64,000 nt of DNA from Cloacibacterium normanense (lineage in GTDB: Bacteria; Bacteroidota; Bacteroidia; Flavobacteriales; Weeksellaceae), in the NCBI RefSeq assembly GCF_002943105.1, contig NZ_PTPZ01000006.1:62001-126000 (forward strand). The letters are read 5' to 3'. Shown here in pieces: positions 13,487 through 43,599 of this stretch. Numbering within the stretch: position 1 is the stretch's first letter; each line of letters begins with the position of its first letter. The position numbers and the translations under genes are program-made. Under the pieces are notes generated by a model, which did no database searches, was not told where the DNA came from, and saw only the letters and a list, made by a program, of their open reading frames with translations.

Positions 13487-13503
13487 CACGCAAAGGCGCA
13501 AAA
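13487..13503. repeat. Solitary CGCAAAG-word repeat
   Basis: The stretch ACGCAAAGGCGCAA has the same words as the ends of the GxxExxY element at 36.7-37.2 kb. It stands alone here with no partner in inverse orientation, so it may be a leftover end. Confidence 0.6.
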
Positions 13504-15072: not shown

Positions 15073-15092
15073 TTTTTATAAAAAAAAACTTC

Positions 15093-15118
15093 CACAGATT
15101 CCACAGATTTCACAGATT
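15093..15118. repeat. Three tandem CACAGATT words
   Basis: CACAGATT occurs at 15093, 15102 and 15111 with a 9-base period, in the gap between rdgB and rnz. No inverted partner is seen nearby, so it looks like a solitary end of the word-repeat elements described in the findings. Confidence 0.85.
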
Positions 15119-36687: not shown

Positions 36688-37232
36688 AACGCAAAGGCGC
36701 AATTCAATTTTTTATAAGTGTTACGTTTTTAAGGCGCAAGAAAATCAAAGATTTTCATTTTTTATAAACCATTAACAACTCTTTTTACTCCGTCTTTAAA
36801 TATATCTGTTCTAAAATTAAGAATTAATCCTAATTTGCAATTTGTCAATTTTAAATAAGTCAATATCTGTGCTTTATGAACATCATTTATGAAGTCAACC
36901 GTTTTTATTTCTAGTATAAGTTTATCCTCAATAATAATATCAATTCTATAGGCATTTTCAATTCTTAATTCTTCATAGATGATGGGAAGTATTCTTTGTT
37001 TTTCTACCTTTAATCCAGTTTTTTTCAATTCATAAAACAAACATTCTTCATAAACATTTTCAAATAATCCTGCTCCAAATTTCCTGTGAATTTTTAATCC
37101 TAAATCAAAAACAATTTTTGATAATTCATTTTCTGTCATAGTTTTGTTATTAGTTTTTATTGAATTGTCATCTTAGATGACTTGCGTCTTAAATGCGCTT
37201 TGCAGATAAAACTTATTTTGCGACTTTGCGTT
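36688..37232. mobile_element. GxxExxY element A with inverted terminal word repeats (candidate)
   Basis: 545 bp. Outer ends AACGCAAAGGCGCAA (36688-36702) and, inverted, AACGCAAAGTCGCAA (37218-37232) match at 14 of 15 positions. Inner copies TTTAAGGCGCAAG (36728-36740) and TTTAAGACGCAAG (37181-37193, inverted) lie 40 and 39 bases further in. Next to each inner copy is a small hairpin with different sequence but the same shape. The GxxExxY gene lies between. The element separates a permease gene from its ATPase gene, which suggests insertion. No transposase is present and no target duplication was found. Confidence 0.6.
36762..37139 (-). CDS. GxxExxY protein (PDDEXK_3 family)
   Basis: 125 residues. 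It has the name-giving GLFENVY (Gly24, Glu27, Tyr30) and the nuclease-like core RIDIIIEDKLILEIK with Asp67, Glu77 and Lys79, which fits the D-(x)n-ExK pattern of the PD-(D/E)XK superfamily. The family (TIGR04256/PF13366) has no established function known to me. The gene fills most of a 545-bp unit bounded by inverted word repeats, inside an ABC-transporter operon and on the same strand. Confidence 0.9.
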   Translation of the reverse strand: MTENELSKIVFDLGLKIHRKFGAGLFENVYEECLFYELKKTGLKVEKQRILPIIYEELRIENAYRIDIIIEDKLILEIKTVDFINDVHKAQILTYLKLTNCKLGLILNFRTDIFKDGVKRVVNGL

Positions 37233-41932: not shown

Positions 41933-42488
41933 GCCACTAATGCACGAATATTTTTTAAAAAAAAATTGTTTTTAATTCCACTAATTCACAAATTGAAAAA
42001 CTAATATATGGGTATCATTCATAAGGATGAGTCATATCAAATTATTGGAATTTGTATGGAAGTTCACAATAATTTGGGAGCAGGTTTTTCAGAAATTGTT
42101 TATAAAGATGCTTTGGAATTAGAATTCAAGAATGCTAAAATTGAATACTCTAGAGAAAAAGAATATGCAGTAAACTACAAAGGCATTATCCTTTCTCATA
42201 AATTTTATGCAGATTTTGTCATATTTGATAAAATTATACTTGAAGTTAAAGGGAAAAATAAAATAGTTGATGAAGATATTGCACAATGTATTAATTATTT
42301 AAAAGTATCTGGAAATAATTTGGCTCTTTTGGTAAATTTTGGCGAACCAAAACTTAATTATAAAAGAATAGTTCTTTAGTCAAAATTTATTATAAAAATC
42401 AAATAAATTAAATATAATTTGCGCATTTGTGGCATAAAAAATAAACTTTGAATCAAGAAAAATTAAATAAAATTCGTGTATTCGTGGC
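41933..42488. mobile_element. GxxExxY element B with inverted word repeats (candidate)
   Basis: 556 bp, nearly the same length as element A. Four copies of a 17-base word gCCACnAATnCaCrAAT are present: 41933-41949 and 41977-41993 on the plus strand, 42417-42433 and 42472-42488 on the minus strand, facing the first pair. The enclosed gene is a GxxExxY homologue. The right outer copy lies inside the first codons of the methyltransferase gene. The words are unrelated to those of element A although the plan is the same. Confidence 0.6.
42008..42379 (+). CDS. GxxExxY protein (PDDEXK_3 family)
   Basis: 123 residues. GFSEIVY (Gly26, Glu29, Tyr32) gives the family motif, and FYADFVIFDKIILEVKG supplies Asp69, Glu79 and Lys81 of a PD-(D/E)XK-like site. 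By eye it is only distantly similar to the other copy at 36.8 kb (shared VH/IH-NLGAG/KFGAG, VYxxxL, I-LE-K, LALLVNFG/LGLILNFR). The two are therefore not recent duplicates, although both sit in elements of the same layout. The function is unknown; a nuclease activity is suggested by the fold. Confidence 0.9.
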   Translation: MGIIHKDESYQIIGICMEVHNNLGAGFSEIVYKDALELEFKNAKIEYSREKEYAVNYKGIILSHKFYADFVIFDKIILEVKGKNKIVDEDIAQCINYLKVSGNNLALLVNFGEPKLNYKRIVL

Positions 42489-43599
42489 AAAATATAAAGA
42501 TGCAGATTTGCATTCTTTGTTATTGAAAAAATCTCCATTTCCTGAGGTTTCTATACAAGAATTGGTTCAGCAAATCAAAGGTAGAAAAGTAGCAGAGAAA
42601 AAGTTTCCTTTTTTGAATCAAGAAAACATTATTTTCCCGCCAAATCTTAATCTAGAACAGGCTTCATCACAAGACACCGCAGACTTCAAAAAACAGTTTT
42701 TTAAAGGGAAAAAATTCATTGATTTAACTTGTGGTTTTGGAATTGACGCTTATTTTTTTTCTCAAAATTTTGAAGAAATTACTTTAATAGAGCAGAATAC
42801 AGAGCTTTTGGACATCGTAAAACACAATTGGGAAGTTCTCGGAAGAAAAGCGAATTTCATTAACCAAAAATTAGAAGATTTTCTAGAAAACAATTCGGAT
42901 AAATTTGATTTGATTTACTTAGACCCTGCAAGAAGAGATAATCATAACAGAAAAGTATTTCTTTTAGAGGATTTGTCGCCTAATATTATTGAAATTCAAG
43001 AGCATTTAAGTGACATTTCACCTGAAATTTTAATAAAACTGTCACCGCTGATTGATATTCAGCATTTGGTTTCTTCGCTTCAAAATATTCATAAAATATG
43101 GATTATTGCGGTCAAAAATGAAGTAAAAGAAGTTTTGGTTTATCTCAAGAAAACAGAAAATCAACCAGAAATCTTCTGCATCAATTTACAATCTTCAGAA
43201 CCTGAATTTCACTTTAATTTAGATGATGAAAAACATTGTAAATCAGAATTTTCAATTCCAAAAAAATATATTTACATTCCAAATAATTCCGTATTAAAAT
43301 CTGGAGCTTTTAATTTAGTTTCAGAGAAATTTGGTTTGAGAAAATTACATCAGAACACACATATTTATACTTCCGAAGAAAAGATAGAATATTTCCCTGG
43401 AAGAATTTTTGAGACAGAAGAAATCAATTCAAAAGCGATTAAAAAGGGTGAACAATTTAATATCATCACCAAAAATTTCCCTTTAAAACCTGAAGAAATC
43501 AAGAAAAAATACAAAATAAAAGACGGAGGAAACCAATACCTTATCGCGGTAAAATCTCTTTCTGGAAATCATTTCCTAGTAGGAAAACTTCTTGATTAA
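42448..43599 (+). CDS. Class I SAM-dependent methyltransferase, THUMP-like
   Basis: 383 residues. The SAM motif is FIDLTCGFGIDAYFFSQ (about 90-106), then EEITLIEQN, and the catalytic-type LIYLDPARRDNHNRKVFLLEDLSPN (about 152-176). A C-terminal THUMP-like segment ends NQYLIAVKSLSGNHFLV. The target is probably a nucleic acid, unknown in detail. There is no in-frame ATG near the start; TTG 42448 is used. Residues IRVFVAK at positions 9-15 are encoded by the right end of GxxExxY element B, so the N-terminus may have been remodelled by that element. Confidence 0.85.
   Translation: MNQEKLNKIRVFVAKYKDADLHSLLLKKSPFPEVSIQELVQQIKGRKVAEKKFPFLNQENIIFPPNLNLEQASSQDTADFKKQFFKGKKFIDLTCGFGIDAYFFSQNFEEITLIEQNTELLDIVKHNWEVLGRKANFINQKLEDFLENNSDKFDLIYLDPARRDNHNRKVFLLEDLSPNIIEIQEHLSDISPEILIKLSPLIDIQHLVSSLQNIHKIWIIAVKNEVKEVLVYLKKTENQPEIFCINLQSSEPEFHFNLDDEKHCKSEFSIPKKYIYIPNNSVLKSGAFNLVSEKFGLRKLHQNTHIYTSEEKIEYFPGRIFETEEINSKAIKKGEQFNIITKNFPLKPEEIKKKYKIKDGGNQYLIAVKSLSGNHFLVGKLLD

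Follow-up and report, generated by a model that had tools for sequence, protein, structure and literature searches.

Short words facing inward often flank GxxExxY genes and covary with the encoded PD-(D/E)XK protein

The window analysed here, a stretch of 64,000 nucleotides from Cloacibacterium normanense, carries two short GxxExxY genes, each enclosed by words that are repeated on both sides (here denoted unit 1 and unit 2). The features of unit 2 are:

41933..41949, plus strand: outer left word GCCACTAATGCACGAAT, starting 2 bp past the stop codon of the upstream methylmalonyl-CoA mutase-like gene
41977..41993, plus strand: inner left word TCCACTAATTCACAAAT
42008..42379, plus strand: GxxExxY gene, 123 aa, PD-(D/E)XK nuclease (TIGR04256, PF13366)
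42417..42433, minus strand: inner right word, minus-strand reading GCCACAAATGCGCAAAT
42472..42488, minus strand: outer right word, minus-strand reading GCCACGAATACACGAAT, within the 5' end of a methyltransferase ORF

The pattern CCACNAATNCRCNAAT has exactly four matches in the window, at 41934 and 41978 on the plus strand and at 42417 and 42472 on the minus strand, whereas 100 dinucleotide shuffles of the window gave no match at all (mean 0.00, maximum 0). A looser form, allowing up to 3 mismatches, gave 5 matches with 4.43 expected, a number that is not significant; the best four of these five are the four unit-2 words. The first-pass annotation had described four copies, two per side and facing inward, and its coordinates, directions and length of 556 bp all held. 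The outer right word lies inside the methyltransferase ORF (42448-43599) and is therefore not intergenic; a relative with an empty gap (genome G006) has other codons there. Rfam families were absent from the whole window at gathering thresholds.

Unit 1 lies 5 kb upstream of unit 2 on the opposite strand, with the following features:

36688..36702, plus strand: outer left word AACGCAAAGGCGCAA
36730..36740, plus strand: inner left word TAAGGCGCAAG
36765..37139, minus strand: GxxExxY gene, 125 aa
37181..37191, minus strand: inner right word, plus-strand reading CTTGCGTCTTA
37218..37232, minus strand: outer right word, plus-strand reading TTGCGACTTTGCGTT

Its outer word ACGCAAAGNCGCAA matches at 36689 (plus) and 37218 (minus), with inner copies near 36730 and 37181. 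The proteins of the two units are 32% identical over 95 residues. As had been proposed, both units are built on one plan, in which outer and inner words face the GxxExxY gene; the accompanying claim that the two words are unrelated did not hold, as both are tandem CRCNAAK-like words of period 8, a case of the CRCNRRK grammar at 8-12 bp described below. A third GxxExxY gene, on another contig of the source genome, has its own different word (TTTAACACATTAGTCATATTAGAG / GAACACATGAG). Elsewhere in the window we noticed a one-sided triple array CACAGATTCCACAGATTTCACAGAT at 15090-15118, soon after a stop codon and of the CACAGAT type that also occurs at the unit-2 site of G003, and a lone copy of word 1, ACGCAAAGGCGCAA, at 13488-13501, whose exact partner is absent nearby in the window.

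The unit-2 protein is assigned to TIGR04256 (GxxExxY) at 3.7e-38, and its scores lie far above the curated cut-offs of TIGR04256 (130.5 bits vs 35) and of PF13366, PDDEXK_3 (119.6 vs 22), the latter being its only Pfam match. Across 45 aligned sequences the residues that never vary include G24, G26, E29, D69, E79, K81, Q93 and Y97, so that the D...ExK core of PD-(D/E)XK enzymes (D69, E79, K81) is kept. The QxxxY motif is a signature of the RecB family. An AF2 model (pLDDT 94.3) has an alpha/beta core; its best structural match in the PDB is 4ic1, SSO0001 (E 1e-4), which we take to be Cas4, followed by phage-type exonucleases and AdnA. TM-scores of about 0.5-0.6 (by query) point to a shared fold, not close kinship, and a search of the PDB by sequence returned no relatives. 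GxxExxY proteins thus resemble Cas4/RecB nucleases in fold and in the ExK and QxxxY residues. Cas4 has the cysteines of an Fe-S cluster, whereas GxxExxY proteins have 1.6 cysteines on average and no cysteine among the invariant residues, and the unit-2 protein has only 123 aa. PADLOC found a weak likeness to Cas4 in unit 1 (1.9e-4) and none in unit 2, and PADLOC and PHROGs together gave weak nuclease likeness and nothing more. The Rpn or PDDEXK_2 "recombination-promoting nucleases" are likewise small PD-(D/E)XK proteins, annotated as transposase-like, and belong to a Pfam family other than that of GxxExxY; we know of no word arrays associated with them.

PF13366 genes are present in six of seven genomes of the genus and in 75 of 148 genomes drawn evenly across the phylum. 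A first sample of 160 loci from these two sets yielded 164 genes or gene fragments in 157 loci. The 250-bp left flank of each gene was aligned to the reverse complement of its right flank, and a score of at least 14 was taken as the threshold. Inverted matches reached this score at 82 of 161 genes, compared with 1 of 161 mispaired flanks and 0 of 40 control ORFs. Direct repeats did so at 44 of the 161 genes, as expected where both flanks each hold an inverted pair. In a second sample, a scan of named genomes from which 80 loci were kept (mostly Bacteroidota, many of them metagenome bins), the corresponding counts were 47 of 79 genes, 4 of 79 mispaired flanks and 4 of 265 control ORFs. The test proposed in the first-pass annotation was thereby run in a near form, its controls being mechanical ORFs and mispaired flanks rather than proven small intergenic genes, and did not refute the proposal, inverted words being enriched beside GxxExxY genes.

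The counts of 82/161 and 47/79 include fragments of broken genes below 90 aa (4 and 9, respectively), and in the former two overlapping fetches were counted double; restricted to proteins of 90 aa or more and cleared of duplicates, the counts become 80/153 and 44/68. Pooled, the flanks of 124 of 221 GxxExxY genes are linked by inverted repeats, where 20 mispairings gave a mean of 4.8 and a maximum of 9, and 97 of 221 genes fall below the threshold. The loci are largely best-scoring matches, not randomly drawn, and some orthologues in the genus set are not independent. One locus (L256, score 8.0), wrongly taken for a duplicate, stands outside the pooled, covariation, orientation and 7-mer counts, and with it the pooled figure is 124/222. 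Among scored loci labelled well outside Bacteroidota (L250, which looks mis-binned, omitted), 8 of 13 passed: Dojkabacteria, two Planctomycetota, Lentisphaerae, Acetobacteraceae, Chloroflexi, Alphaproteobacteria and "Hatepunaea". Those that failed were two loci of the Verrucomicrobia group, Zetaproteobacteria, one Gammaproteobacteria and one cyanobacterial locus. In a hold-out of seven plasmids, three passed (Bacteroides, Bernardetia, Gemmatirosa); the plasmids of Fusobacteria, Sphingomonas, Prevotella and Treponema scored below 14, and by eye the flanks of the Fusobacteria, Prevotella and Treponema plasmids hold other short repeats.

Two further observations concern the labels and surroundings of single loci. 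A Rhizobium-labelled bin (L250, probably mis-binned) and a Sphingobacterium-labelled bin (L264) both show the unit and flanks of a Flavobacterium-type site. On a Sphingomonas plasmid (L408) the neighbours of a GxxExxY gene are fabD and fabG, and only one of its sides bears words.

Enriched 7-mers beside the gene were counted with no preset motif, the top ones being CGCAAAG (15-fold) and CACAGAG (25-fold) with their shifted forms, followed by CACAAAG, CACAGAT, CGCAGAG, CGCAGAT, CGCTAAG, CACGGAG and CACGAAG. Their common grammar is CRCNRRK, with start-to-start distances mostly of 8-12 bp (mode 9), and the last letter is almost fixed within an array (G-G 368, T-T 114, mixed 26). A minority of ends fits the grammar poorly, for example the ATTAAG type (L051, L053) and the TTGTCTGAATCAGAAT type (L190). 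Using this grammar, which was derived from the same loci, we counted 10-12 inward word dyads per kb within 50 bp of the gene vs 0.07-0.21 per kb at 800-1200 bp; dyads faced inward on both sides at 87 of 223 genes and outward on both sides at 15 of 223. The inward word plan is therefore a property of the GxxExxY family beyond the two units of the window. Convergence of unrelated words on one plan was considered and rejected, because the abundant words share grammar and spacing. It had been argued that common descent of the DNA alone hardly explains the shared plan; since the words are variants of one grammar, it is enough to assume a single inherited system whose protein and word diverged together.

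Word type follows protein type. In 24,393 gene pairs whose flanks showed no detectable homology, similar words were found in 1% at 35-40% protein identity, 24% at 60-70% and 44% at 70-85% (n=143), compared with 0-1% in distal control flanks throughout the identity bins. The correlation of word and protein similarity (Pearson 0.28) exceeded anything in 300 permutations (at most 0.03). A protein that reads its word would be expected to show such covariation. The earlier suggestion that GxxExxY proteins act on, or are maintained by, their ends thus gains from the covariation and from the flank enrichment, and loses the unrelated words on which it had been built. Word number, in turn, depends on the gene: the pattern CRCARAGNNCRCARAG has 705 matches in the 75 genomes with a PF13366 gene vs 66 in the 73 genomes without (25 and 30 for the reversed-pattern controls), and when gene presence was permuted within 12 mixed families, 0 of 20,000 permutations reached the observed association. 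Three or more words despite absence of the gene were found in 5 of the 73 genomes (G051 12, G143 11, G113 9, G045 4, G030 3).

Words also occur in pairs that enclose no gene. Word 2 has 7-18 exact matches in six genomes of the genus and none in G006, with 0 or 1 for the reversed-pattern control. Genomes with the matching gene type hold 9 (G000), 9 (G001) and 13 (G005) copies, those at the gene itself included, and genomes without it hold 7 (G002), 8 (G003) and 18 (G004), no fewer than the carriers. Word 1 has 5-12 matches in all seven genomes of the genus (control 0), among them 6 copies in G006, which has no PF13366 gene. These copies indicate that the pairs outlive, or do not need, the cognate gene. 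Neighbouring copies at most 200 bp apart in the genus face inward in 15/19 and 8/11 cases, a few of which belong to gene-bearing units. The gene-less inward pairs are about 40-165 bp long and, in the loci read, intergenic as judged by eye and uncounted; in several gene-less copies of word 1 a short hairpin is enclosed by both outer and inner words, the plan of unit 1 minus the gene. Tandem arrangements were seen as well: whole gene-less units follow each other with a period of about 210-230 bp at L402 and L403 (G018), and at L046 (G002), about 1900-2410, tandem gene-less word units adjoin a gene-bearing unit.

Empty, gene-less and gene-bearing states of the same site are found in near relatives. 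The flanks of the unit-2 gap in G003 and G006 are 91-96% identical to the window; in G003 the gap is filled by a different GxxExxY type and its CCCACAGATTTCACAGA words, and in G006 it measures 77 bp and contains no word. We surveyed 21 gaps with both flanks, and 6 further loci with the left flank only. A GxxExxY gene occupies 5 of the 21 gaps, being of the window type in G000 and in G164 (where an inverted word pair lies on either side of the gene), of the CACAGAT type in G003 and G018, and of the unit-1 type in G187. The last (L200), from another genus, encodes a protein 74% identical to that of unit 1 and has CGCAAAG words. Word remnants only were found in G004 and G178, 12 gaps are short (36-94 bp) and have no word pair, and 2 have other content. 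At this one site, therefore, a single family has three GxxExxY types or none. A gene-less site likewise holds a word-1 pair in G000 and an ATTAAG-type array in G001, G002, G003 and G006. At Flavobacterium-type orthologous sites, CCGCAAGG arrays were recognised by eye on the 5' side in 10 of 10 and on the 3' side in 9 of 10 (L278 unclear).

The cleanest site carries gene and words in G002, a gene-less pair with the same left arm in G003 and a truncated gene in G005; it is empty in G000 and G001 up to the outermost word (CTTATATCTTACGAAC in G001), at which the break lies, and holds other hairpins in G006 and G004. Its flanks in G002 are 92-96% identical to those of G000, G001, G003 and G006, and 78-85% identical to those of G005 and G004. 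As the unit is also present in the diverged G005, it may have been lost from G000 and G001; with one genome per species, the filled and empty states could record either insertion or excision.

Inverted ends, gene-less derivatives and filled and empty sites are features that GxxExxY units share with insertion sequences and their MITEs. The units could accordingly be very small ordinary transposons of about 500 bp, with GxxExxY as the transposase, the arrays as multi-site terminal repeats and the gene-less pairs as MITEs. Such a reading would suit the long identical ends of some gene-bearing units (51 bp in L227, 44 bp in L282), the end plan common to gene-less pairs and gene units, the one filled/empty site and a tandem pair of GxxExxY genes in G098 (L096), 99.2% identical and about 740 bp apart. 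Against it, all protein pairs above 83% identity in the sample have homologous flanks (orthologues, overlapping fetches and the G098 pair). A recently active gene-bearing transposon was rejected on this count, as no copy above 83% protein identity lies at unrelated flanks among the sampled genes; in contrast to an insertion sequence, gene-bearing copies have not multiplied at unrelated sites in this sample. The gene is under strong purifying selection and mostly inherited in place: dN/dS in 26 orthologue pairs, which share species, had a median of 0.07 over the 23 defined values, one of them 0.51, with dS = 0 in the other three. Of 72,556 plasmid records, 7 contain a relative of one member protein (L221), and none of 50,697 phage records does. 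A simple test for target-site duplications in 36 strong-ended units found none in 28, 3-5 bp in 7 and 10 bp in one (L043, for which an orthologous empty site was searched and not found), and a duplication as a general feature is not supported by this test; the L046 site has a possible 5-bp duplication, (C/T)TTAT. Unlike insertion sequences and MITEs, the units show no consistent target-site duplication by the simple test, and the protein does not have a classical transposase fold. We consider an ordinary transposon unlikely.

Another enzyme might instead mobilise the word pairs, GxxExxY being cargo or persisting where pairs accumulate, and the pairs that persist in genomes without the matching gene type would fit this. 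The words, however, lie closest to the gene and face it from both sides, their type tracks the protein and their number tracks gene presence within families, and we regard the proposal as quite unlikely.

The arrays could also be regulatory or RNA elements (operator, terminator or mRNA hairpin) bound by a GxxExxY regulator, with no mobility. Four gene-less pairs folded as single strands gave long hairpins (z -4.6 to -12.3), and in some relatives the same gap is occupied by a simple terminator-like hairpin instead. Between the arms of 15 word-2 pairs (some of them orthologous), the free N positions matched in 17 of 45 cases, with a permutation mean of 20.8; in that set the word rather than the stem appears to be kept, and stem pairing as a conserved feature was ruled out for the word-2 set only, a pair in another genus (L397) forming a near-perfect stem. 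The unmatched arms, the swapping of word families at sites and the invariance of D69, E79 and K81 all speak against a purely regulatory role, which we judge improbable. In the few neighbourhoods looked at we found no CRISPR genes, and one plasmid copy adjoins radA. A defence or self-marking system, in which the Cas4-like enzyme would attack incoming DNA and the words would label or process the cell's own, would draw on the weak PADLOC likeness of unit 1 and on the fold. We judge it very improbable; no partner gene recurs in those few neighbourhoods.

A closer parallel is provided by REPINs and RAYTs. RAYT enzymes are described as encoded by short genes that pass vertically, are seldom or never found on plasmids and are tied to their repeat, and REPINs as inverted repeat doublets, hairpin-capable and intergenic, the repeats being commoner where the RAYT gene is present (PMC8049555, PMC8266576, PMC3116915; see also PMC3733652); the exact function of RAYTs is given as unknown (PMC8049555). 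GxxExxY genes are likewise short, mostly vertically inherited, rare on plasmids and situated beside their repeat, and their words form intergenic, hairpin-capable inverted doublets that are commoner in gene-bearing genomes. The two differ in the enzyme, which is of the HUH/Y1 type in RAYTs and of the PD-(D/E)XK, Cas4/RecB-like type in GxxExxY, where an H-hydrophobic-H motif occurs in 3 of 248 proteins. They differ also in the repeat, a palindrome tagged with GTAG or CGTC in REP and a tandem 7-mer, CRCNRRK, here; neither tag is present among the 40 enriched 7-mers listed. In the open literature GxxExxY and PF13366 have incidental mentions only, TIGR04256 is unmentioned and six word strings gave unrelated matches only; open titles and abstracts on repeats, REPINs and nucleases do not link the nuclease with the words, and with most subscription papers outside this search, a description elsewhere is possible.

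We think it probable that GxxExxY and its words constitute a word-specific repeat system resembling REPIN/RAYT, with a Cas4/RecB-type nuclease in place of the HUH enzyme. In the mechanism we propose, the GxxExxY gene would be a stable, mostly vertically inherited enzyme gene that itself mostly stays put. The nuclease may recognise its own 7-bp word (CRCNRRK, every 8-12 bp), either as duplex or as extruded hairpin, and its cutting of the words would lead to copying, exchange or loss of inverted pairs between intergenic gaps. Gene-less inward pairs would in this way spread to other gaps and also be lost or swapped there, presumably by way of a hairpin or of single-stranded DNA, with a possible benefit to the host.

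There is perhaps an even chance that GxxExxY proteins form a cross-phylum class of domesticated PD-(D/E)XK enzymes, each dedicated to one variant of a single 7-bp grammar, that copy or exchange inverted word pairs among intergenic gaps. A REPIN/RAYT-like lifestyle would then have arisen independently a second time, and the code that links protein to word would be readable. The link to word arrays gives the named family TIGR04256 a substrate hypothesis that can be tested directly. If true, it would account for a class of intergenic repeats found here in several phyla, and the recognition code of a very small nuclease could be read from the natural pairs of protein and word.
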